From assembly GCA_902812405.1 (NCBI GenBank), contig CADDZI010000012.1, positions 1 to 51,429 on the forward strand: a stretch of 51,429 bases of DNA. Direction: 5' to 3'. Of this stretch, positions 5,632 through 26,761 are shown in pieces. How positions within the stretch are numbered: the stretch's first letter is position 1; every line of letters begins with the position of its first letter. The stretch comes from a bacterium. GTDB taxonomy: Bacteria; Vulcanimicrobiota; Vulcanimicrobiia; Eremiobacterales; Eremiobacteraceae. Both the position numbers and the translations under genes were made by a program. The notes under the pieces are model-generated. The model was given only the letters and a program-made list of their open reading frames with translations. It made no database searches and had not been told where the DNA came from.

Positions 5632-7059
5632 TTAGCCGGGGCGGATAATCTTCAGGAAGTTCGTGCGCCCCTGGACGCCCAGCGGTGTACCGCCCACGAG
5701 CACGACCGCCTGACCCGGCGTGACGGCACCCAGGTGAAGTAATTTTTCCTCGACTGCGGCGGTCAGCTCGTCCGTGCTCTTGCCGAAGTCGACGACGCAG
5801 GGGTACACGGCCCACGAGAGCGCCAAGCGGCGCGCAATTGTTTCGTCCGGAACGAAGGCATAGACGGGAACGGCCGGCCGGTCCTTGGACACGATCCGCG
5901 CGGAGAACCCGCTGCGCGTGAAGGCCGCAATGGCTTGCACGTTCATCGCCTCGGTAATGGACAGCGCGGCCTGGGAGATGGCCTGCGCGTCGGTCATCAG
6001 GCCGTCGCTGCGCCGGCGTTCGCGGACCGGTGGGAAGCTGCGCTCCACCTCGAGCGCGATGCGCACCATTGTCTCCACGGCCTGGAGCGGATAGGCGCCC
6101 ACCGCGGTCTCACCCGAGAGCATGATCGCATCCGTACCGTCGATAATCGCGTTGGCGACGTCGGAGGCCTCGGCCCGCGTTGGCCGCGGATTGCGGATCA
6201 TCGATTCGAGCATCTGCGTCGCCGTGATCACCGGAATCAGGTGCGCCCGGGCACGTTGAATGATGCGCTTCTGCAGCGTCGGCACCCGCTCGGGCGGCAA
6301 CTCGACGCCAAGATCGCCGCGGGCAACCATGACCGCATCCGCAACGTCGAGGATGGCCTCCAAAGCTTCGACCGCCTCCGGCTTTTCGATCTTCGCGACG
6401 ATGAGCGCCGCGCCGCCGGCCGCGGCCACGGCTGCCTTGGCCTCGCGGACGTCGTCGGCACTGCGCACGAAGGACTGTGCGATGACATCGACGCCGGCCC
6501 GGCACGCCAGGACGATGTCCTCGCGGTCTTTGTCGGTGAGGGTCGGGGCGGAGATGCGCACGCCGGGAAGATTCATCCCCTTGTGCTCGCCCAACTCACC
6601 GCCGTTGACGACCGTCGTCTCCACCTTCCCGTCGGCCACGGTATCCACGCGCAGCTCGATGCGACCGTCATCCAGCAAAATCCGGTCGCCCGGTTTCACG
6701 TCGCGCGGCAGGTATTGATAGGTCGTGGCAATGCGCCGTTCGTCGCCCACGATGTTTGCCGTCGTGATCTCCACGCGCGCACCGGCCGACAGGTGTATGG
6801 GGCCGTGATGCACGAGCTCCCCCACCCGTAACTTGGGTCCTTGCAGGTCGGCCATCACCGCGACATGCCGGCCGCAGCGCCTCTCAACGGCACGCACGAG
6901 CTGCGTCCATTCGGCCAGCTGCTCGCTGCCCGCATGCGAGAGGTTGATACGGAAGACGTTGACCCCCGCCTCAACCAGCTGCTGCACCATCGCCGGGTGG
7001 CAGGACGACGGCCCCAAGGTGGCGATGATTTTGGTCCGCCGAAAATCGTTGCCGGTCAT
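5632..7059 (-). CDS. pyk: Pyruvate kinase
   Basis: A 475-residue enzyme that converts phosphoenolpyruvate and ADP to pyruvate and ATP. It starts MTGNDFRRTKIIATLGPSS and carries VFRINLSHA, VMADLQGPKLRVGE and the active-site segment MVARGDLGVELP. The C-terminal region has the allosteric-domain fold, with AAFTRSGFSARIVSK. The length is that of the plain enzyme, without the extra PEP-utiliser domain found in some Firmicutes. Its ATG overlaps the purN stop as ATGA, so it is translationally coupled as the last gene of purM-purN-pyk. Confidence 0.97.
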   Translation of the reverse strand: MTGNDFRRTKIIATLGPSSCHPAMVQQLVEAGVNVFRINLSHAGSEQLAEWTQLVRAVERRCGRHVAVMADLQGPKLRVGELVHHGPIHLSAGARVEITTANIVGDERRIATTYQYLPRDVKPGDRILLDDGRIELRVDTVADGKVETTVVNGGELGEHKGMNLPGVRISAPTLTDKDREDIVLACRAGVDVIAQSFVRSADDVREAKAAVAAAGGAALIVAKIEKPEAVEALEAILDVADAVMVARGDLGVELPPERVPTLQKRIIQRARAHLIPVITATQMLESMIRNPRPTRAEASDVANAIIDGTDAIMLSGETAVGAYPLQAVETMVRIALEVERSFPPVRERRRSDGLMTDAQAISQAALSITEAMNVQAIAAFTRSGFSARIVSKDRPAVPVYAFVPDETIARRLALSWAVYPCVVDFGKSTDELTAAVEEKLLHLGAVTPGQAVVLVGGTPLGVQGRTNFLKIIRPG

Positions 7060-14460: not shown

Positions 14461-16011
14461 TCACTCCCACTCGATCGTCGCCGGGGGCTTGCTCGTCACG
14501 TCGTACACCACACGGTTGACCTCGGGCACTTCGTTGACGATCCGTGTTGCGATGCGCTGCAAAAGCGCGGGCGGCAGGTGCGCCCAGTCGGCCGTCATGC
14601 CGTCGTCGCTCGTGACCGCGCGCACCGCCACCAAATTTCCGTAGGTGCGAAAATCGCCCATCACGCCGACGCTGCGCAGCGGCGTCAGGATCGCAAAGTA
14701 CTGCCAGGGGGCCTCGACCCCGTCCCGTTCGATCTCCTCGCGCACGATGGCATCCGCCCGGCGCACGACCTCCAACCGCTCCGGGGTTACGGCACCCAGA
14801 ATACGCACCGCCAAACCCGGCCCCGGGAAGGGCTGACGATTGACGATCCGGGCCGGCAGACCCAATTCGCGCCCCAGCCGGCGCACTTCATCCTTAAAGA
14901 GCAGGCGCAGCGGCTCCACCAGCCTGAGATTCATGTGCTCGGGAAGCCCACCCACGTTGTGATGCGTCTTGATCTTGGCGCCGCTCTTGCTGTGCGGCGT
15001 CTTGCTTTCGATGACGTCCGGATAGAGCGTTCCCTGAACCAGAAACTCCACGCCCGGGATGCGCGCCGCTTGCTCCTCGAAGACCGCAATGAATTCGCGC
15101 CCGATGATCGCGCGCTTCTCCTCCGGGTCTTCCACGCCCGCCAACGCGGCCAGGAAACGCTCGCGCGCATCCACGGCCACCAGGTTCAAGTGCAGCACGT
15201 CGCGGAACGCGGCCACGACGTCGTGGGCTTCGCCGGCACGCAAAAGACCGTGATCCACGAAGACGCACGTCAACCGGTCGCCGATGGCACGAGCCACAAG
15301 GGTCGCCGCGACGGCGCTGTCGACCCCGCCCGAGAGGGCGCAGATCGCCCGCCCGGTCCCCACCTGCCCGCGAATCTCCTCGATCGCCCGGTCAATGAAC
15401 GAGCTCATTTCCCATAGCTCGCGCAGACCCGCGATCTTGCGCAGGAAGTTGCGCAGGATGGTGCGGCCATGCTCGGTGTGGCGCACTTCGGGATGAAACT
15501 GAACGCCGTAGCGCCGGGATTCCGGATCGCCGCACGCCGCCACGGGGCAGGTCGCGGTGTGGGCCAGCTTGAGGAAGCCGCGGGGCAAAGCGGTGACCGT
15601 GTCGCCGTGGCTCATCCACACCTGGGATCGCCCCGGTACGTCCAAAAAGAGCAGGGATTGCGCCGCATCCACGATCAACTCGCTGCGGCCGTACTCGCGC
15701 ACGACGCCCGGCACGACCGTCCCCCCGCACGCCTGCGCGAGCTCCTGCATGCCGTAGCAAATGCCCAAAATCGGTTTTCTCGCACGCAGGATGCGAGCGT
15801 CCAGGTGCGGCGCGTCGGGCTCCAGCACGCTGCGGGGCCCGCCTGTCAAAATGTACGCCGACGGCTCGCGCTCAAGCACGTTCTCCCAGGCAGCGTCGTG
15901 CGGAAAGATCTCGCAGTAGACGCGCTCCTCGCGCACCCGGCGGGCGATCAACTGCGCATACTGGGCGCCGAAATCGACGATGGCCACCCATTCGCGCGGC
16001 GCGGCCCTCAC
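14461..16011 (-). CDS. guaA: GMP synthase (glutamine-hydrolysing)
   Basis: A 516-residue enzyme that converts XMP to GMP. The N-terminal class I glutaminase has [17 protein letters not shown], the nucleophile Cys in [10 protein letters not shown] and the His/Glu pair near the PEVRHTEHG segment. The synthetase part has the PP-loop [12 protein letters not shown]. The C-terminal dimerisation domain ends [17 protein letters not shown], the classic GuaA terminus. The GTG at 16011 overlaps the stop of the preceding PurP paralogue (GTGA) and has GGAG upstream. The frame stays open further upstream, but that part is not homologous. Coupling to the PurP genes places GMP formation directly with late IMP synthesis. 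Confidence 0.96.
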
Positions 16012-17147
16012 GTGCAGATCTCCGCCAGGCGGCTTTGATCGCGCGCTTGGGCGATTTCCCACGCAATGCGTTCGCCGACCGACATCTCGCGACCCCACCG
16101 GTATGCCGAGTATGGGGTATACTTCGTGCCCGGCGATCCCGGGATGCGCAGGCTGACGTCGTACACGATGAAGCTCTTGGGCGGACCCGCCGCAATGACG
16201 CACTGCAGCGCAAACGGACCGATGATGCCCGGCGGGTGCAGGCGTTGGGTTGCGCGGACGAAGCGTTCGCCCATCTCGAAGGCTTGTTCCAGCATCGATT
16301 CCGTCACCGTTGCGGCAATGTGCCCGGCCTCCTCCAGCGACGCGGTGAACGCCGCGCCCAGCGGTGCCTGGTCGACGGCCAGCAGCGAGCGGATACCGTC
16401 GATGTTCGTCTGACGGCGTGTGTCCGTGCCCAGAAGTTCCAGCTCGCCATTTAGCGGCGACCAGAAAAAGTTCAGATTGACCGTCGGGCCGAGCACGTAC
16501 TCCTCCAACACCGCGCGGCGCAGGCCTTCCTCCGTAACCACCCCTAAAGCCAGGTAGTGGGCGGCCCGCTTGCGGTACTGCTCTGGCGTGGCAGCCACGA
16601 AGAACGCGCGCTCGAAGGAAACGCGGGCGTGCTGTGCCTTGATCATCGTCAGGCCGGCGATCTCATCCGGGCTCGCCAGACGCTTCGGACGGCGCAGCCC
16701 GGCCTCGTCCAGCAGACGGTACTGGTTGTCGGCTTCGTCGCGCTCCTCGGCCCGCAGAAGGCCACGCGCACCAAAGACAGGCACCCGCAGGCCGCGCTCG
16801 ATCTCGTCGTACGAGTAGCGCTGGCGGGCGTACACTTCAAACGACCGGTTGGGGATGAAGATGGCATGACGCGCCAGCAGCGCGTTCTGCACCTCCTGGT
16901 TCAAGACGTCCGCGAAGTGGTCGACCAGCAGCACCTCGTCCACGCATCCCGTGCCGTCCGGTCGCGAGCGGTAGGCCTGCGCGTAGGTTTTTTCCCTCCC
17001 ACGCGCTGCGACGACGACGCTGCGCAGCCCCATGCGCTTGGCGCCCAGGCAGACGTCCAGCGCCGAGTGGCTGCCGATGCAGGCCACGCTGAGGTGTGAT
17101 GGATCGTACGAGGCGAGGGCGGCGCTGACGGACGTCGCCGCGCTCAT
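16008..17147 (-). CDS. Divergent PurP paralogue with degenerate ATP-grasp loop
   Basis: A 379-residue homologue of PurP (DUF1246/DUF1297 architecture). Shared landmarks are [64 protein letters not shown] and [12 protein letters not shown]. The glycine-rich ATP loop of true PurP (K-x-x-G-A-x-G-G-x-G-Y) is instead K170[13 protein letters not shown], with no glycines. The active-site segment EISAR is replaced by [19 protein letters not shown]. From memory, archaeal genomes also carry such PurP/PurP2 pairs, and the role of the second is unsettled. Its ATG overlaps the stop of the canonical purP (ATGA) and its stop overlaps guaA, so it is tightly coupled. It could be a second subunit, or it could fill the missing IMP cyclohydrolase step. 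This is inference. Confidence 0.85.
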
Positions 17148-18265
17148 CAGTTCGTGGGCACCCCCGGACCAGGGACGGCGACGGCGGCCGTATCCGGCGT
17201 CGCCCCTGCGTCGAGACGCAACCGGCTGGACTGGTCGAGGACCAAGTCCAAGCTGTTGGAGAGCAAGGCGTTCTTGATCTCGCGGGCGATGCGGCGCCCG
17301 GTCGACATCGGTTCGTCGTAGTTCAAGTACGAGTAGGGCGACCCGTCGATGAAGAGATTCGTGCCGGCCACGATACGCGCGGAAATCTCCATGAGGAAGA
17401 ACTGCGATTCGGGCGTCACGATCGTTTCCAGACAGAACGCACCGAACAGGCCGCGCGGCGGGCACAGCTCGCGGCTGGTCCGCACGACGGCCTCGCCCAT
17501 CTCGAAGGCCTCCGCCAACAACGACTCGCGCAGGCTGATTGGCTGATTCCCGATGACGACGTAGGAAGGCGAGATGTCCCAGCCTTCCTGGCTGGCCAGC
17601 GGGATGCGCCCCAGAGAGTCCACGTTGCTCTCGTAGCGGCGGTCCATGGACATGATTTCCAGCTTGCCGGTCAGCGGCGAGTAGAAGTAGTGGATGTAGA
17701 CCGGGACACCTAGGACGTACTCTTGGATAATGTAGCGCTGCTCGACGAGGTGCGAGGCGCGGGCTGCAAAATCGTCGGCGTTCTTGACGAACAGGTACCC
17801 CTTGCCGCCGTGCGCCCCGTAGAGTTTGACAATGACAGGACGGTCGATCTCATCGGCTTTTGTAAACTGGCGCGGCATGCGCAAGCCTGCACGCGTCAGC
17901 CACTCGCGCTGGCGCATGCGGTCGGCTTCCCAATCCAGAACCGCCTTGTTGCCGAAATAGGGCGTGCGCATGCGTTTGTGCTCGTCCAGAGAGAGGTACG
18001 CGACGAACGAGCCGTGCGGCACTAAAATCAGCTTGCGCCGGTTGAGCTCGCTCTCCAGTTTGGGGAAATCTCCGTAGCGCGGGATGACGATGACCTCGTC
18101 GACGAAGGCGAAACTCTTGTACAGACGTTCGTTGTGGGGCGTCACGACGGCAAGGGTGTGGAAACCTTCGTCTTTGGCCCCCTTGAGAATCTGCAGGGCC
18201 GAGTGGCTGCCCAAGGTGGCGATCGTGAAGAGCGAGGGCAACGGGCCGGCGGCTTTGGACATCAT
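17147..18265 (-). CDS. purP: Formate-dependent AICAR ligase (PurP)
   Basis: A 372-residue ATP-grasp enzyme predicted to make FAICAR from AICAR, formate and ATP, replacing the folate-dependent PurH transformylase. It has LGSHSALQILKGAKDEGF (G19-S20-H21), VPHGSFVAYL, the intact nucleotide loop VIVKLYGAHGGKGYLF (147-157), IHYFYSPLTGKLEIMSMDR, RYESNVDSLGRIP, SLRESLLAEAFEMGE, MEISARIVAGTN and STGRRIAREIK. These follow the Methanocaldococcus enzyme closely. The ATG at 18265 overlaps the preceding stop (ATGA); a second ATG follows at 18262. It is coupled upstream to the PurS-like gene and downstream to its own paralogue. Confidence 0.9.
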   Translation of the reverse strand: MMSKAAGPLPSLFTIATLGSHSALQILKGAKDEGFHTLAVVTPHNERLYKSFAFVDEVIVIPRYGDFPKLESELNRRKLILVPHGSFVAYLSLDEHKRMRTPYFGNKAVLDWEADRMRQREWLTRAGLRMPRQFTKADEIDRPVIVKLYGAHGGKGYLFVKNADDFAARASHLVEQRYIIQEYVLGVPVYIHYFYSPLTGKLEIMSMDRRYESNVDSLGRIPLASQEGWDISPSYVVIGNQPISLRESLLAEAFEMGEAVVRTSRELCPPRGLFGAFCLETIVTPESQFFLMEISARIVAGTNLFIDGSPYSYLNYDEPMSTGRRIAREIKNALLSNSLDLVLDQSSRLRLDAGATPDTAAVAVPGPGVPTN

Positions 18266-18792
18266 CGGCTCATGTTCTCCATCGGGGTAGGCCGTTCCCC
18301 GACGGCTGTTGCGACGCGCAGGGGACGAATCTCCCAGACCTGCGACACAGGATTGGCCAGGAGGACCTGACACGCCCAGGCCAGGCGCTGCGGACCGGCC
18401 GGGCCGCCGCTGTCGGCCAGACGCCAGCCGACCGCCCGCGCAAGCGCGTGCAGAGACGTCAGACCAAACGTCGTGCGCAAAAGCCCGACCAAGCGTGTGT
18501 TGTCTTCCTCCTTATCGCGGACCAGCGCCTCCCAGGTACGGGGTTGACGCACGGGGGCGTCCGCCGTCGCATAGCTCAAGCGATGTTTGTTGGGGTTGAA
18601 GAGGATCTCCGCGTGCCGCACGCTTCGGGCGACAGCCTCCGGCGAGGCGGCATCCTCGACCTCCAGCAGCACGTGGTCCGCCCGCTCCACGCGCGTCAGC
18701 TCGGGGTAGCCCAGTTCCTGCAGCGTGCGCAGAACGGTAAAGGCCGTGTTATCGGGCACGGTGAGTTCGATGAGGATGTCTATCTGCCGCAT
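18262..18792 (-). CDS. Two-lobed PurS-like protein (candidate FGAM synthase small subunit)
   Basis: A 176-residue protein from ATG 18792; the frame is open to a start at 18858, but those 22 codons lie in a duplicated noncoding segment. Residues 1-75 look like a ferredoxin-type half ending AEILFNPNKHRLSY. Residues 85-158 form a second half ending CQVLLANPVSQVWEI, which closely resembles the tail of ordinary PurS (LLANPVIEDY...). PurS is normally about 80 residues and bridges PurL and PurQ as a dimer. A fused tandem PurS would explain the size. The window has short PurL and separate PurQ, which need a PurS, and no other candidate is visible. Its stop overlaps the purP start. The assignment is inference from the tail motif and context. 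Confidence 0.6.
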   Translation of the reverse strand: MRQIDILIELTVPDNTAFTVLRTLQELGYPELTRVERADHVLLEVEDAASPEAVARSVRHAEILFNPNKHRLSYATADAPVRQPRTWEALVRDKEEDNTRLVGLLRTTFGLTSLHALARAVGWRLADSGGPAGPQRLAWACQVLLANPVSQVWEIRPLRVATAVGERPTPMENMSR

Positions 18793-18909: not shown

Positions 18910-20475
18910 TCACGCGCCCGCCCCCGACGCCGCGGGTACGGGTGCGGCGCCGGCGGGCTCTTCTTCGTAGTCTGCAGGCGTGGTGCGGTCGGTGCCGCGG
19001 CGCGCACCCGTGCGGTCACAGACAGGGGTGAGAGCGGCCGCCACGGCGAGGTTAAGGACAAACGCATACAAGGCGGCAAAGCCGGGCACGACGTGAACTC
19101 CGATGTGAAGCGGATAGACGGCGCGGAAACCGGTGACGGCCGGCATGTACGTGGCTGCCGCCATTCCGACGAGCCACCCCGCAAAGAGCGCCCTGCGGTG
19201 GAACCAGCGCGTGTAGAGGCCGCCGACAATCGCCGGCAGGGTCTGCAGGATCCATCCGCCCGCAAAGAGCTGAAAGTTGATCGCGTACTCGGTGGGCAGC
19301 CCGATCACGAACAGGAGGGCACCCAGCTTGACCACCAGCGACGCGAGCTTGGCCTGGGCGCACTCCTGGGCGGGCGTACAGCCCGGCCTGAGGTATTCGC
19401 GATAGATCGTGCGCGTCCAGAGATTGGCGGCCGCGATAGACATAATGGCCGCCGGCACGAGTGCGCCGATCACGATGGCGGCAAAGCCCACGCCAGTGAA
19501 CCAGGGTGTAAACTCGGTTGCCAGCAGCTGGGGGACGACCGCATTCGGGTTGGCCGGTGACAGCCCGGCCGCTAAAGCCAGATAGCCGAAAGCGGCGATG
19601 AGGGCAAGCAGCAAGCTGTACGCCGGAAGCAGGACCATGTTGCGGCGGATAACCCCCGTGCCGGATGCACCCAAGAGACCTGTGAGCGAGTGCGGATACA
19701 TAAAGAGCGCAAGCGCCGACCCCAGGGCGAGGGTCGCGTACGCCGTGAAGTCCCCAGGCGCGAGCACAAGGCCGATCGGATGCGGGCGCTTGGCCAGGGC
19801 CTGGCCCGCGGCGGCAAAGACGCGCCCCCAGCCGCCCAGGTGCGCGGGAATGACGATCGTGGCAGCGATGACCGTCGCGTAGATCAGCACGTCTTTGACG
19901 ATCGCCACGAGCGCCGGAGCGCGCAGGCCGCCGCGGTACGTGTAGGCGGCCAGGATGGCAAAGGCAACGACGATGGGAAGATCACGCAAGGGCCCGGTCG
20001 TCGGAAAGCCCAGGCTGGCGATGACGACCTGCATGCCGACCAGCTGTAAGGCAATGTACGGCATGGTCGCAAGGATCCCGGTCGCTGCAACCGCCAGTTC
20101 CAGGCTGCGGCTGTCGTAGCGTTCGCGAATGAAGTCGGCGTACGTGATGTATCCTCGGCGGCGTGCGACGGTCCACAACCGCGGGCCGAAAACGAAGACC
20201 AGCGGATAGACAAGCGCTGTGTAGGGCAGCGCGAAGAATCCCAGCGGTCCCTGGCCGTACACGAGTGCCGGGACCGCGATAAATGTGTAGGCGGTGTAGA
20301 GATCGCCCCCGATCAAAAACCAGGAGACAAACGTTCCGAAGCGGCGCCCGGCCAGCGCCCACTCGTGCAGCAACGAGAGGTCGCCGCGACGCCAACGTTC
20401 CCCGGCAAATCCCAAGACCGACACCAGGCCGAAGAGCGCGAGGAACACGGCCAGGGTGGCCGCGTTGGGGTGCAT
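18910..20475 (-). CDS. Sodium:solute symporter (SSS family, MctP/PanF-like)
   Basis: A 521-residue membrane protein with about 13 hydrophobic helices. It shows the N-terminal layout of monocarboxylate/pantothenate-type SSS permeases: WALAGRRFGTFVSWFLIGGD, then YTAYTFIAVPALVYG, then RRRGYITYADFIRERYDS. The start is fixed at ATG 20475, which overlaps the stop of the small DUF3311 gene (ATGA). The frame runs on upstream but would enter that gene. A polar tail of about 45 residues follows the last helix. The substrate is unknown; family members move lactate, pyruvate, acetate or pantothenate. It interrupts the purine genes between purQ and the PurS-like gene. Confidence 0.88.
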   Translation of the reverse strand: MHPNAATLAVFLALFGLVSVLGFAGERWRRGDLSLLHEWALAGRRFGTFVSWFLIGGDLYTAYTFIAVPALVYGQGPLGFFALPYTALVYPLVFVFGPRLWTVARRRGYITYADFIRERYDSRSLELAVAATGILATMPYIALQLVGMQVVIASLGFPTTGPLRDLPIVVAFAILAAYTYRGGLRAPALVAIVKDVLIYATVIAATIVIPAHLGGWGRVFAAAGQALAKRPHPIGLVLAPGDFTAYATLALGSALALFMYPHSLTGLLGASGTGVIRRNMVLLPAYSLLLALIAAFGYLALAAGLSPANPNAVVPQLLATEFTPWFTGVGFAAIVIGALVPAAIMSIAAANLWTRTIYREYLRPGCTPAQECAQAKLASLVVKLGALLFVIGLPTEYAINFQLFAGGWILQTLPAIVGGLYTRWFHRRALFAGWLVGMAAATYMPAVTGFRAVYPLHIGVHVVPGFAALYAFVLNLAVAAALTPVCDRTGARRGTDRTTPADYEEEPAGAAPVPAASGAGA

Positions 20476-20681
20476 CACCGCTCCTCCGGGTTTCGCATCA
20501 ACCACGCCACGCAACCCGTCATGAGCCCGCTCAGTGCGATCCAGACAAATTGGTACCAGTAGAAAAAGGGGATGCCCGCTATAGTGGGGTCGTGGCGCGC
20601 GTACAGAGGGGGCCACAAGAGAGCCGCATACGGCAGCAACAGCAACCAGTACCAGTGGCGGGCATGCGGCCGCCTCAGCAT
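20475..20681 (-). CDS. Small DUF3311-type membrane protein, symporter partner
   Basis: A 68-residue protein with two hydrophobic segments (WYWLLLLPYAALLWPPLY and PFFYWYQFVWIALSGLMTG) separated by a short polar stretch. Such proteins typically sit just upstream of SSS symporters as an accessory subunit, as here, with a 4-bp ATGA overlap. The start at ATG 20681 is supported by a GGAGGAA Shine-Dalgarno; an upstream ATG at 20744 lacks one. The 195 bp between this gene and purQ hold nothing else that I recognise. Confidence 0.82.
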   Translation of the reverse strand: MLRRPHARHWYWLLLLPYAALLWPPLYARHDPTIAGIPFFYWYQFVWIALSGLMTGCVAWLMRNPEER

Positions 20682-20876
20682 CGTGTTTCCTCCGCACGGC
20701 ATTGGTTCACGCGCCGCCCCATCCCCGCCTCCGGGCTTGGCCACCCACCGGCGTCAAGGTTGCCCAGATCTGCGGTCACGCTGCACCAGTGCTGTCAGGC
20801 GCACATATGCCGGCCGCCCACGCCGGCCGACCCGGCGCCCAAGGTTCCCGTCCGGCGACGCCGGATCCGCCGCCTT

Positions 20877-21614
20877 TTAGGCGACAGCGCGCACAGCCGC
20901 CGCCAAAGCTGCGAAGACCGCGTGTGCGGCCGTCAAGCCCATAGGGTTGGCGTGCAACTCGGGGCGGGCAAAGGCCAGATTGTAATTCCAGGCGACACGT
21001 TCCGGATGGGGCATGAGAGCCAAAATGTTGCCCTCTTCGTTGCACACACCTGCTGCGTCGCACAGCGAGCCGTTGGGAGCACCGCCCACATAGCGAAAGA
21101 TGATGCGCCCCTGGCGTTCGAGCTGGTCGAAGGTCTGTCGGTCGCCCGTAAAACGGCCCTCGCCGTGCGCCATCGCCATCGGCACGCGGAGGCCGGCCGG
21201 CATGGCGGCCGTCAGCGCGCAGCGGGTGGGCGGTGCGGTCAGCTCGACCTCGACCAGGCGGCATTGAAAATGGCCCGCCGGCAAATTGCGGGCCAAGGCA
21301 ATCGGCCCCAAGAGCCCGGCTTCCGCCAGCATTTGGGCGCCATTGCAAATGCCCAGGACGAACTTCCCGCGTTGGGCCTCTTGGGCAATCACCCGGAGAC
21401 TCTGGGAGCGTGCGGCAATCGCCCCCGCCCGCACGCGGTCCTCGTGTGCAAAGCCGCCGGGCAAGACGTATGCGTCGAAGTTGCGCAGGTCGCCTTGGGG
21501 TTCGCTCCACAGAACGGGGCGGGCATCCATACCTGCCGCCCGGCAGGCATCTACGGTCTCTTCCTCCGAGTTCGTGCCTGGAAAAACCAGGACAGCAACC
21601 CTTGCCGCGCTCAC
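20877..21614 (-). CDS. purQ: FGAM synthase glutaminase subunit
   Basis: A 245-residue class I glutamine amidotransferase that supplies ammonia to PurL. It shows VLVFPGTNSEEE, the oxyanion region YVLPGGFAHEDRVRAGAIAA in part (LPGGFAHEDR), the nucleophile Cys in LGICNGAQMLAEAG and the His/Glu pair in MPHPERV. Length is typical of stand-alone PurQ. The start is GTG at 21614, overlapping the purL stop as GTGA. Usually purS sits beside purQL, but here it does not. Confidence 0.95.
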   Translation of the reverse strand: MSAARVAVLVFPGTNSEEETVDACRAAGMDARPVLWSEPQGDLRNFDAYVLPGGFAHEDRVRAGAIAARSQSLRVIAQEAQRGKFVLGICNGAQMLAEAGLLGPIALARNLPAGHFQCRLVEVELTAPPTRCALTAAMPAGLRVPMAMAHGEGRFTGDRQTFDQLERQGRIIFRYVGGAPNGSLCDAAGVCNEEGNILALMPHPERVAWNYNLAFARPELHANPMGLTAAHAVFAALAAAVRAVA

Positions 21615-23965
21615 GCGTACAGGTCCTCAAGCGGCTTGCGCCAGGCGGCGGCGAGCTCGGCAATCCTCAGCCGGCAGACCTGGTCTATGGCAAGCCATTC
21701 CCCGCCCGTCGTCCCCAGCCGGTGCAGCGCCGCTGTGTGCCGTGCGGCCAGGCTTTCAAAGTCGCTGCTCGCGTGTGCCGGCACGGAGACGACGAATCCT
21801 CCGCTTTCCCCGAATAGGGCCCGCGCGAGATCCACGCCGGGCGCCCACTGGGCGGGAGCAGCAAGCCGAGCACCAATCGCCCCCTTACCGTCCGGGCCAA
21901 AGCACATCTCGGCCACGCACGCCAACAGGCCGCCGTCGGAAACGTCGTGCGCCGCGCTCACGATGCCGGCTTGAATGCCGTGCACGACGGTTGCAATGTC
22001 GGCATTGATCTGCGCGTAGTCGAGAGACGGCAGCGGACCGGGCTGCGCCGCCGCCAGCACTTCGGCCAGAACCGCTCCGCCCAAACTGGCGGGGAACGAT
22101 CCCACCAAGTACAGCACCTCGCCGGCGGTATGCACCTGCATGCCCACCGTTCGGCTGACGTCGTCAATGCGCCCCAGACAAGCTACGATGGCGGACGGCA
22201 CGACGGACGCGCCGGAAGCGGATTGATTGTACAGGCTGACGTTGCCGCTGACAAACGGCAGGCCCGTTGGCGAGCTGACGGTGAGACCACGCGCCGCTTC
22301 CGCCAAGCCCTCAACGCCTTCGGCCAAAGCCCGGTAGGCTATGGGATTCTCCGGATTGCCGTAGTTGAGGCAATCGGTGAGACCAATAGGCCATGCGCCA
22401 ACGGCCGCAACGTTGCGGACGGCTTCCACGACAGCATGGGCGGCAGCCAGGCGCGGGTCGAGAGCGGCATAGCGAGGGTTGCCGTCCACGGCGAGCGCCA
22501 GTGCCAACCGCGCGCCGCGCTTTACGAGCAGGACACCCGCGTCCGCATAGCCCGCCGGAAGGGCGGTCGCACCGCGCACGAACGTGTCGTAGTGCTCGAC
22601 AAGCGGCCGGCGGCAGCAGACATCGGGATGTGCCAGTACGTGAAGAAGCGCGTCGCCGGCGTCGGGCACGTGTAGTGGCACATACGGCAAAGGTGCAGGG
22701 GGTGGCGGACCAAGGGTCAACCGGCGGCGGGGAGCCTGCGTCAGGGCTTCAATCGGCAGGTCGCACACGGCGCAGCCGCCGCTGCGTGCGATGTAGCGAC
22801 GCTCGCGCGTGACCTTCCCGATCACGGCCGCCCGTGCGTTTGCGGCAACCTCGGGCAGCGTAAAGACCTCGTTGTAGATCGCGAGCAGACGCGGTGTGAA
22901 CGATGTCGGCACCGCCCACAGCATCCGTTCCTGCGTTTCGGCCAGCGCAACGACAAAGGGAGGCAGGTTGGGCACAGCCCGCGGCACGGCATCCAGGTCG
23001 ATCTGCGCCCCGAACCCGCCCGCGGCGCACAATTCCGCCGAACTCCCCAAGATGCCGCCCGCACCCAGGTCTTTGAAGCCAACCTGGAGGCCGCTCGCAT
23101 GGATCTCGTCGAAGGCCGCGTAGCTGGCCCGCATGATGACGTTTTCGAGAAACGGGTCGGGAACTTGGACTGCACTCTTGTTGACGTTGGCTTGGGCGGC
23201 ATCCAGCGTCAGCGAGGCGAAGGCGGCGCCGCCAAACCCGGAGGCATCGGTCGCCTTGCCGACGAGGACCAGGTCGTACCCTTCGCCACCGGGCGGCACT
23301 CGGCTGGGGAGAATGCGCTCACGTTCGACGATCCCGACGGCGACGACGTTGACGAGACAATTCTCGGCATAGGAAGGATGAAAGTACACGTCGCCCGCCA
23401 GGTTGGGTACGCCCACCGCGTTGCCGTAGGCGGCGACGCCTTCGACGGCGGCACGCGCCACGTAGGCGGGGTGAGTGCCGGGCTTCGGCGGCCCGAAGCG
23501 CAGCGGGTCCGCGCAGGCGACGACCTTAGCGCCCATGCACAGGACGTCACGCAAAATCCCCCCCACCCCCGTCGCCGCGCCTTCAAACGGCACGACTTGG
23601 GAAGGGTGGTTGTGGCTCTCGTGGGCGATGACCGCACAGTACTCGACACCGTCTATTGCGCCCAGGCGCAGGATGCCCGCATCCTCGCCGACCGGCACGA
23701 CGACGTCCGGCCCCTGGGTCGGCAGGCGCGCGAGCAGCGCGCGGCTGCTTTTGTAGGAGCAATGTTCGCTCCATTGGATTGCGAAGGCGTGTGCTTCCGC
23801 GCGCGTCGGATCGCGGCCTAACCGTTCGCGGATAACGCGCAGCTCGTCCGGGGTGAGCGCAAGCGCCTCGCTCGCGGCGAGGCGCTTGAGATCGTCGTCG
23901 CTGCCCGACAGCGCGAGCACCTGCGCGGCGTGCGCGACCGGGTCGAAGGTTCCGGCAGGCGTCAC
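21611..23965 (-). CDS. purL: FGAM synthase large subunit (small-type PurL)
   Basis: A 784-residue subunit of the PurL/Q/S complex that converts FGAR to FGAM with ATP. It has WSEHCSYKSSRALL, HESHNHPSQVVPFEGAATG, GGILRDVLCMGA, KDLGAGG, DCLNYGNPENP and AHDVSDGGLLACVAEM. It lacks the fused glutaminase domain of the approximately 1300-residue large type, so it depends on PurQ and a PurS. The GTG start overlaps the purC-purE stop (GTGA) and the stop overlaps purQ. Confidence 0.96.
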   Translation of the reverse strand: MTPAGTFDPVAHAAQVLALSGSDDDLKRLAASEALALTPDELRVIRERLGRDPTRAEAHAFAIQWSEHCSYKSSRALLARLPTQGPDVVVPVGEDAGILRLGAIDGVEYCAVIAHESHNHPSQVVPFEGAATGVGGILRDVLCMGAKVVACADPLRFGPPKPGTHPAYVARAAVEGVAAYGNAVGVPNLAGDVYFHPSYAENCLVNVVAVGIVERERILPSRVPPGGEGYDLVLVGKATDASGFGGAAFASLTLDAAQANVNKSAVQVPDPFLENVIMRASYAAFDEIHASGLQVGFKDLGAGGILGSSAELCAAGGFGAQIDLDAVPRAVPNLPPFVVALAETQERMLWAVPTSFTPRLLAIYNEVFTLPEVAANARAAVIGKVTRERRYIARSGGCAVCDLPIEALTQAPRRRLTLGPPPPAPLPYVPLHVPDAGDALLHVLAHPDVCCRRPLVEHYDTFVRGATALPAGYADAGVLLVKRGARLALALAVDGNPRYAALDPRLAAAHAVVEAVRNVAAVGAWPIGLTDCLNYGNPENPIAYRALAEGVEGLAEAARGLTVSSPTGLPFVSGNVSLYNQSASGASVVPSAIVACLGRIDDVSRTVGMQVHTAGEVLYLVGSFPASLGGAVLAEVLAAAQPGPLPSLDYAQINADIATVVHGIQAGIVSAAHDVSDGGLLACVAEMCFGPDGKGAIGARLAAPAQWAPGVDLARALFGESGGFVVSVPAHASSDFESLAARHTAALHRLGTTGGEWLAIDQVCRLRIAELAAAWRKPLEDLYA

Positions 23966-25239
23966 GCCGATCCGGCTCTCCCGTTTTCCGTTGGGCCGTT
24001 CATCTTCGCGTCGGCATCGGTAATCTGAACCCGGTTGCGGTACTGCTTGACGACGACGCGTCCATAGATGACGGGGTCATCCGCCGCCAAAATCTTGGCG
24101 GCCGCCAGCGCCGCGTTCTCGGGTTCCAAAACGATGGTGCTCGCCACGCCCTTGGGCAATGCCAGACTCGAGATAACCTCCATCCCAGCCCAGGTCTGAC
24201 CCAACGGTGGACAGGCGATGACCGGATGTGCGGTTGCCGCGTCGACGAAGGCCGAGAGGGCGTTGCTGCGGCCGGCAATGGTGATGTACACCGGCCGGCC
24301 GAGCATGTTGTCGATCTGCTGGACCTTCTGCAGAGTGAAGAGAGGGGTTTTATGGGCCGAGGCGACGTGGCGGCGGACCGGAATGCCGTACTCGGCGAGT
24401 GCTTTCTCAACGCGCTCGGCGTGCTCAGCATCGGAGGTCGACCCCATGATGATGGCGGCAAAACCGCCGCTGCTCCGGCAGAAGCGCGCCACGCGCTCGG
24501 CGACTTCTTCGTACTTGGCCTTGACGCCGTCCAAATCGGCGGGCGTGGGAGTCGCGATGTTGCGGTAAATCTGCTTGTCGAGCATGAGCTGTTGATCGCC
24601 CGCCGGCCAGATGCGCCAGGAATCGTTGTCGATGACGTCGGCCAAGAGTATCTCGGTGCCGCCTCCCGGCCGCTGGGCTCGCCCGAATTCGACCTTGAGG
24701 TCGACGAGGAGCACGTCTTGCAGCTTCCAGGCGTGTGCCAGGATCTCGAAGATGAGCCGTGCGTAATCGCTCATGAGCTCAAGCTCGGCCGGGGTGGCGA
24801 CCTTCTCCTCGACAATCTGCTCGGCCGTGTACTGCGGGTCGTGGCGCGCGTCGTCCTTGAAGAAGTACTCGACGACGCGCGGGGCCAGCACGGTGCCGGA
24901 CTTCATGCCGGGGTTGCGCTTGAGGTAGGATCCCGCGGCGATGCCCCGGACAACAACCTCGATGGGGATCATCTCGCAGCGCCGCACGATCATTTCATTG
25001 TTGTCCTCGTCTTCGCCGCCGCCCAGAAAATGGGTCGGCAGACCGGCGGCATTGAGGAGGCGGAAGACGCGGCTTGTCGTCAGTGCCGCCAGGCGCCCCT
25101 TGCCGCTGATCGTGTGACGTTTGGCGCCGTCACCCGCCGTGATATTGTCCTGCTGCACGACAACCAGTGCGTCGGCACGCTCCGGGTGCACGTAGAGCAC
25201 CTTGGTCTTACCGCGGCCTACTTCAGCTCCCTTATTCAT
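23962..25239 (-). CDS. PurC-PurE fusion: SAICAR synthetase plus class II AIR carboxylase
   Basis: A 425-residue bifunctional protein. Residues 1-250 are SAICAR synthetase, with GRGKTKVLY, EMIPIEVVVRGIAAGSYLKR, DVLLVDLKVEFG and DVIDNDSWRIW. Residues 259-412 are an AIR carboxylase with GSTSDAEHAERV, SAHKTP (294-299), AGRSNALS and CPPL (343-346). The GRSN and CPPL signatures match the class II PurE of animal PAICS, which uses CO2 directly, rather than the AGGAAHL pattern of class I enzymes that need PurK. No purK is seen, which agrees. The start ATG 25239 has an AAGGAGT Shine-Dalgarno and lies 8 bp inside the end of purB. Domain order (C then E) also matches PAICS. Confidence 0.92.
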   Translation of the reverse strand: MNKGAEVGRGKTKVLYVHPERADALVVVQQDNITAGDGAKRHTISGKGRLAALTTSRVFRLLNAAGLPTHFLGGGEDEDNNEMIVRRCEMIPIEVVVRGIAAGSYLKRNPGMKSGTVLAPRVVEYFFKDDARHDPQYTAEQIVEEKVATPAELELMSDYARLIFEILAHAWKLQDVLLVDLKVEFGRAQRPGGGTEILLADVIDNDSWRIWPAGDQQLMLDKQIYRNIATPTPADLDGVKAKYEEVAERVARFCRSSGGFAAIIMGSTSDAEHAERVEKALAEYGIPVRRHVASAHKTPLFTLQKVQQIDNMLGRPVYITIAGRSNALSAFVDAATAHPVIACPPLGQTWAGMEVISSLALPKGVASTIVLEPENAALAAAKILAADDPVIYGRVVVKQYRNRVQITDADAKMNGPTENGRAGSA

Positions 25240-26761
25240 GCGACTCCTTTCCGCGAGGTTGGTGAGCTCCGTCGGCAGATTTGTGAGGTCTGTGAGGCGA
25301 GGGTCCCGGGCGCGCCGTTGCGGCTGCAGGGGCCACGGGGGTCGGAGAGGGGGTGGCCTGAGCAGCCTGCGCTCGGCCACACGCCGTGCGCAGCAATGAC
25401 GCAACTGTTCGTGCGCGCCTGCCGGCCAGACCTGTGTGTGCCGTGACCTGCATGGCACTCTCAAGGTCCTGAGGGCTCAGGTGCGCCATGATTGCCTTGT
25501 CCCCCGCGATGAGCGCCGCCAGCGGATTGGATTGCCCTTCTTCCACAGCCTGCCAGGCACGCAGAGAGAGCTCGCGCAGGCGTTCGTGGAGGGCTTGGCG
25601 ATCCGCCCCGCGCCGGGTGGCCGCCACCAAGACTGCCTCGGTGCATGCGAAGGGACCGAAGCGTTCCAGATTGCGCGCAATAGCGGCCTTGTCCACCCGC
25701 AGCCCGGTGACGACACGGTGCGCCAGCCTGACAATTTCATCGCATGCCAGAAAAGATTCCGGAATGATGGTGCGCCGGTTAGCCGAGTCGTCGAGCGTCC
25801 GTTCGAGCAGGTTGTCGGCCGCGTTGTGCCACGCGATCTGGGCGTGTGCCGCCACGATGCGCGCCAGTGACGTGATGCGCTCACATAAGATGGGGTTGCG
25901 TTTGAAGGGCATCGCCGAGGAGCCGACCTGTTTGCGCCCAAATGGTTCGCCCAACTCTCCAAAGGGGCTTGAGGCCAAAATGCGCACGTCAAATGCAAAC
26001 TTGGCGCAGGAAGCGGCCAGGCCGGCCAGCGTACTGAGAACCTTGTAGTCGAGCTTGCGTGGATACGTCTGGCCGCTGATCGGGACGGCATGCAGATCGA
26101 AAGCCGCCAAGACGTCGCTCTCCATTTCGTCTGAATCCAAGCCCGTTCCGCGAAGCAGCAGCTCGTAGGATACCGATGTTCCCACGGCGCCGCGCAGACC
26201 CTTGCCGGGCAGCCATCCGGCCAGGTGCTCCAGGTCTTCAAAGTCCAGCAGCACGTCGTGCGCCCACATCGCAAGGCGCATACCAAGGGTGATCGGTTCG
26301 GCGGCTTGCAGGTGCGTGTAGCCCATGGCGGGCAGGTCTGCGTACTCTTCGATCTTGTCCGCAAAAGCCTCGAGCAGGCTCCTCACGTTGGAGAGCAGCA
26401 TCCCAAGGGCGGCCTTCATGCGCGCCGTTTCGACGTTGTCCTCGATGTCCATGGAGGTGGCGCCCAAGTGGAGTTTGCCTCCGCCGACCGTTGCTTGCGA
26501 GGCGAAGACTCGAAGCTCGGCCATTAAATCGTGGCCGATCTCCGCTTCGATCGCCGCCGCCGCCTCAAGGTCCACCGCGTCCACGTGGCGGCGTATGTCG
26601 TCCAACTCCACCTCGCTGACCAGTCCGGCCTTGGCTTGCGCCTGTGCCAGGGCCAGCCACAGGCGCCGCCACATGCGGCGCTTGGTCTGCTCCGAGAAGA
26701 GAACACGCATTTCCGGGCGCCCGTAACGCCAGGAAAAAGGTGACTGATAGGTGTCGTTCAC
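25232..26761 (-). CDS. purB: Adenylosuccinate lyase
   Basis: A 509-residue member of the fumarase/aspartase superfamily that cleaves SAICAR to AICAR and adenylosuccinate to AMP. It has the flexible loop signature GSSAMPFKRNP, the catalytic-His region GYTHLQAAEPITLG and HLGATSMDIEDNVE. The start is GTG at 26761. The last 50 or so residues are a proline/alanine-rich, poorly conserved tail, so the enzyme is somewhat longer than the usual 430-470. The tail end overlaps the start of the purC-purE fusion by 8 bp. Confidence 0.96.
   Translation of the reverse strand: MNDTYQSPFSWRYGRPEMRVLFSEQTKRRMWRRLWLALAQAQAKAGLVSEVELDDIRRHVDAVDLEAAAAIEAEIGHDLMAELRVFASQATVGGGKLHLGATSMDIEDNVETARMKAALGMLLSNVRSLLEAFADKIEEYADLPAMGYTHLQAAEPITLGMRLAMWAHDVLLDFEDLEHLAGWLPGKGLRGAVGTSVSYELLLRGTGLDSDEMESDVLAAFDLHAVPISGQTYPRKLDYKVLSTLAGLAASCAKFAFDVRILASSPFGELGEPFGRKQVGSSAMPFKRNPILCERITSLARIVAAHAQIAWHNAADNLLERTLDDSANRRTIIPESFLACDEIVRLAHRVVTGLRVDKAAIARNLERFGPFACTEAVLVAATRRGADRQALHERLRELSLRAWQAVEEGQSNPLAALIAGDKAIMAHLSPQDLESAMQVTAHTGLAGRRARTVASLLRTACGRAQAAQATPSPTPVAPAAATARPGPSPHRPHKSADGAHQPRGKESHE

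Follow-up and report, generated by a model that had tools for sequence, protein, structure and literature searches.

A bacterial PAICS-like PurC-PurE fusion in Candidatus Eremiobacterota and the decay of its PurE half in related families

The purCE gene and its operon

The DNA stretch analyzed here (the window, 51,429 nucleotides) makes up contig C12 of a Candidatus Eremiobacterota genome of 2.32 Mb with a completeness of 96.65%. It carries a purine biosynthesis operon with the order purB-purCE-purL-purQ-mctP-purP-purP-guaA-purD-purF, in which purCE joins a SAICAR synthetase (PurC) and an AIR carboxylase (PurE) domain in a single protein (Table 1). The original prediction of a PAICS-like fusion at this locus had given its coordinates without a strand; these coordinates correspond precisely to an open reading frame of the minus strand, and a plus-strand reading of the same interval, which contains no domain, was rejected. 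The SAHKTP, GRSN, and CPPL motifs that had been named are all present in the protein, the last of them at residues 343–346.

Table 1 Features of the purCE locus (positions in the window; stop codon included for purCE).
Feature	Position	Strand	Basis or remark
Two tandem PurP-like genes	16008..18373	-	
mctP, monocarboxylate permease	18910..20697	-	MctP, 688 bits
purQ-like glutamine amidotransferase	20877..21614	-	PF13507, E 5.9e-41
purL, FGAM synthase subunit	21611..23965	-	NF002290, 658.5 bits over cut-off; overlaps purCE stop
purCE, 425-aa PurC-PurE (PAICS-like) fusion	23962..25239	-	ATG at 25239, stop at 23962
SAICAR synthetase (PurC) domain, residues 8–230	24550..25218	-	PF01259 SAICAR_synt, E 2.5e-60
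Class II AIR carboxylase (PurE) domain, residues 262–399	24043..24456	-	PF00731 AIRC, E 1.5e-31; class II in tree
Phosphate-binding loop MGSTSD, residues 265–270	24430..24447	-	Identical to human PAICS 272–277; roles from PMC9376930
Catalytic SAHKTP, residues 294–299	24343..24360	-	His296 aligns with human His303; roles from PMC9376930
Class II signature AGRSN, residues 322–326	24262..24276	-	Alignment and conserved-site check
purB, adenylosuccinate lyase	25232..26761	-	TIGR00928, 355.4 bits over cut-off; overlaps purCE start

The predicted PAICS-like order, PurC followed by PurE in one chain, is borne out both by the Pfam domains and by full-length homology to PAICS. Among proteins of solved structure, the best full-length matches were Bombyx PAICS (4ja0, 1.3e-93) and human PAICS (2h31, 3.8e-90), with stand-alone PurC or PurE ranking far behind. 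An AlphaFold2 model of one chain (mean pLDDT 88) reached a TM score of 0.89 to the human octameric PAICS 6yb8. The same architecture was found in all 12 other genomes of the window's family, f1, in which the locus was read (L127–L138), and we therefore do not regard the fusion as an assembly artefact.

Gene order around purCE is shared as well, with purB-purCE-purL recurring across loci of f1 and of a related family, f3. PurP is also found in the neighborhood of purCE across the f1 and f3 loci; the PurP-like family is the archaeal-type formate-dependent FAICAR synthetase, and a PurH (AICARFT) gene is present on contig C37 of the genome that holds the tandem purP pair. The MctP gene lies between purQ and the purP pair, and a link between this permease and formate supply for PurP is speculation.

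As had been predicted for a fusion of this kind, purK was not found in a profile search of the window's genome, where the best match scored 31.8 bits against a cut-off of 318.4, nor did any of the 14 f1 genomes contain a match above the cut-off. Of the weak purK matches, the two that lie in the window correspond to PurD and PurP, and no match came near the cut-off. The same genome contained no other PurE: its sole second AIRC match, considered as a possible purE, was rejected as LarB (280.8 bits), followed by a LarE-like open reading frame.

Class and predicted activity of the PurE half

We next placed the PurE half phylogenetically, using a tree that comprised 49 PurE domains. Support for the split between class I and class II was 100/100, and the window domain fell inside class II, grouped with its own family at 100/99, in agreement with the class originally proposed. 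Forcing the window and class I into one clade was not rejected (p-AU 0.144), but this constraint shifts only the attachment point of class I; we therefore ran proper nesting tests, and these rejected the placement of f1 within class I PurE (p-AU 1.5e-6 and 2.1e-5). The TIGR01162 profile scored 117 bits on the window PurE, below its cut-off of 149.6.

Residue conservation gave the same assignment. We defined 27 conserved positions from 19 class II PurE domains outside f1 and the related families f2 and f3 (Chloroflexota, T. denticola, animals, Patescibacteria, and other fusions), and the window PurE keeps all 27, the catalytic His included. Its active-site loops align with human Ser274, Ser276, Asp277, Ser301, His303, Lys304, Arg331, and Ser332, whose roles are described in PMC9376930. 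A class II PurE domain with intact catalytic residues, as expected of a PAICS, is present. SAHK and AGRSN motifs occur here in a genome with no PurK found, whereas the marks of class I (grouping with class I, SAHRTP and AGAGGAAHLPGM motifs, and a PurK) are lacking. The two-gene class I route of most bacteria belongs to the same PurE superfamily and achieves the same net conversion of AIR to CAIR, but it requires ATP and PurK, and its PurE has AGAGGAAHLPGM where the window has AGRSN; the pair is absent from the window's genome and present in most f2 and f3 relatives.

One proposal did not survive this comparison, namely that SAHKTP mixes the two classes and marks an intermediate form. SAHKT is a usual motif among bacterial class II PurE proteins: the T. 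denticola class II enzyme carries SAHKTA in the alignment, and the intact bacterial fusions L070 and L076 carry SAHKTP or SAHKTT. The T. denticola protein (3rg8, 3rgg), cited as a known bacterial AIR carboxylase in PMC9376930, resembles the window domain in its SAHKT and AGRSNALS motifs, and the PurE domain of the window model superimposes on it with an rmsd of about 1.2–1.4 Å; unlike the window protein, it stands alone and is not fused to PurC.

Comparison with animal PAICS (human 2h31/6yb8, Bombyx 4ja0) revealed likeness in domain order, PurE class, full-length homology, predicted fold, and a complete set of PurE active-site residues, with about 38–40% identity in the structure alignment. 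The window gene differs in being bacterial, in lying within a pur operon, and in falling on a separate branch. AIR carboxylase has been described as almost exclusively eukaryotic (PMC4177761), and Archaeoglobus provides a class II-like archaeal case (PMC3261824); in the open-access literature we found neither PurC-PurE fusions described for bacteria nor any account of a fused PurE domain that has decayed. The window protein is a new bacterial form of an already known enzyme; more surprising is the decay series seen in its relatives. PAICS is commonly portrayed as an animal solution, a picture that a bacterial PAICS-like enzyme without purK widens.

As far as sequence can establish it, the window protein has the architecture, the PurE class, and the catalytic residues of a PAICS in a genome lacking purK. 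Because the protein belongs to this family and purK is lacking, we infer direct use of CO2: the class II domain would carboxylate AIR with CO2, without ATP or PurK, to give CAIR, and the PurC domain would join CAIR to aspartate with ATP to give SAICAR. The enzyme is probably an octamer built around its PurE domains, as in animals, and may channel its intermediate. The PurE half could instead act as an N5-CAIR mutase, the class I activity, on N5-CAIR made non-enzymatically or by an undetected enzyme, a proposal that finds precedent in archaea with class I-like PurE and no PurK and in the bypass of PurK in E. coli by high bicarbonate or PurE overexpression (PMC3261824). Given a domain that is class II both in the tree and at 27 of 27 conserved positions, and for which class I placement is rejected, we consider mutase activity very improbable. 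We are highly confident in the preferred account, in which purCE encodes a bacterial PAICS-like enzyme, the fusion is ancestral to the bacterial class, and the fused PurE domains of f2 and f3 have lost their catalytic residues but been kept, most likely as a core for PurC.

Decay of the fused PurE domain across the phylum

To follow the fused domain beyond the window, we surveyed 149 genomes of the phylum, taking counts by hand from tables of matches. Within f1, all 13 readable domains (window included) are intact but for changes at no more than two of the 27 sites, none of them in the catalytic loops. In the four f2 genomes the fused PurE is still full length, with changes at 2–8 of the 27 sites. 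Every one of these four sequences, however, lacks the catalytic His (H296L or H296Q) and Ser325, and each genome contains a class I purE. Decay is further advanced in f3 (99 genomes), whose PurC half is about 60–65% identical to that of the window; in the fused PurE sequences read, 18–21 of 27 sites are lost and approximately 27 residues spanning the CPP-SSL-LP block are deleted. Finally, the domain is wholly lost, leaving PurC alone, at L075, L080, L081, and L082 and in f3 genus g45 (G109–G116). The relatives thus form a graded series running from an intact domain through loss of the catalytic His and Ser and deletion of an active-site block to loss of the domain, which makes any benefit of the PurE fusion to PurC, beyond CAIR supply, directly testable.

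Loss of catalytic residues in f2 and f3 is complemented by a class I purE and/or purK in 97 of their 103 genomes. A Fisher p value for this association does not constitute independent evidence, since the association is mainly one phylogenetic contrast. In the remaining six genomes, all of f3 (G056, G065, G079, G085, G104, and G114), searches turned up neither class I purE nor purK, and the fused domain is decayed or unread. Judged from these sequences, most relatives in the phylum keep a fused PurE domain without its catalytic residues and apparently use the two-gene class I route instead. Annotating PurCE by domain presence alone would assign an AIR carboxylase in error to most of the phylum.

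Two observations concern individual loci of the survey. In L022, at about 6001–6387, the purC half is broken by a stop, leaving a frame of 128 residues against about 400 in relatives, which is either a true mutation or an assembly error. Eremiobacterota-type purCE loci also occur under Proteobacteria or Rhodospirillales titles (L009, L047, and L060), and these titles look like taxonomic mislabels.

We then asked whether the decayed domain behaves as a functionless remnant that is passively disappearing, as its entire loss in g45 and the deletion of its catalytic block in f3 might suggest. Nearly all f3 genomes preserve the domain in frame, with no stop in any of the 48 f3 sequences analyzed (L022, with its interrupted purC, excluded), and its C-terminal helix is conserved. 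In close pairs its dN/dS was 0.01–0.11, similar to that of PurC in the same pairs; values from distant pairs were ignored because of saturation. The predicted model of one decayed f3 protein, L016, is confident (pLDDT 91) and retains the PAICS fold (TM 0.90 to 6yb8), and its C-terminal part superimposes on T. denticola PurE at about 1.1 Å. Passive disappearance is consequently unlikely, and sequence comparison shows both the graded decay and the purifying selection that acts on the decayed domain. The simplest interpretation is that class I PurE-PurK took over catalysis in f2 and f3 while the fused PurE, having lost its catalytic residues, stayed, most likely as a structural or oligomerization core for PurC. 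Such a core would not be indispensable, since g45 has lost it without apparent harm.

Outside f1–f3, a second, independent decay is seen in family f13, where the fused PurE of L160 and L161 has lost 21–24 of 27 sites and that of a third member, L159, is intact. The two genomes with the decayed domain, G131 and the 100% complete G132, yielded neither class I purE nor purK; the other AIRC match of G132 is LarB-like and lies beside a LarC-like open reading frame, as named by sequence and neighborhood. Conversely, G007 of family f6 has both a class I purE and a purK together with a near-intact fusion, in which a single conserved site is changed (A295V). G007, G131, G132, and the six f3 genomes without either gene count against the preferred account. 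Taking the phylum as a whole, we lean towards a broader account, in which the PurE half became a non-catalytic but selectively maintained core after class I purE-purK took over in f2 and f3, alongside an independent decay in f13, with the lasting value of the fusion lying in PurC assembly and not in carboxylation, and with a bacterial fusion as a possible source of animal PAICS.

Origin of the fusion and its relation to animal PAICS

The fusions and their decay series also provide material on the origin of animal PAICS. A single origin of all fusions, the animal enzyme included, was neither rejected nor demonstrated, with p-AU 0.464 for one clade of all fused PurE domains. The fusion is probably ancestral to the bacterial class. 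The PurC tree separates f1 from f2 and f3, and the purK genes of f2 and f3 form one group in a quick tree built without outside references. This grouping is consistent with a single gain of purK in the common ancestor of f2 and f3; alternatively, purK may have been present ancestrally and lost in f1.

Animal PAICS groups with the bacterial fusions L067, f6, and f8 in both domain trees, with support of 86/95 for PurE and 98/94 for PurC, where L067 is nearest (96/92). Animal PAICS may accordingly derive from a bacterial fusion, which we treat as a lead and not a result because sampling is thin. Transfer in the opposite direction, with the window gene acquired horizontally from a eukaryote, has a parallel in the transfer proposed for Archaeoglobus class II purE (PMC3261824), and the PurC half of the window protein indeed resembles animal PAICS far more than it does stand-alone PurC proteins of solved structure. 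We nonetheless regard such an acquisition as extremely improbable, given that animals group with bacterial fusions other than those of f1–f3, that forcing animals together with f1–f3 was rejected (p-AU 0.0037), and that the fusion spans the bacterial class with deep divergence. A further argument against it comes from Chloroflexota, in which purC and class II purE, related to the window domains and in the same order, are two adjacent, unfused genes, mostly 3–40 bases apart. This gene pair plausibly represents the state before fusion.
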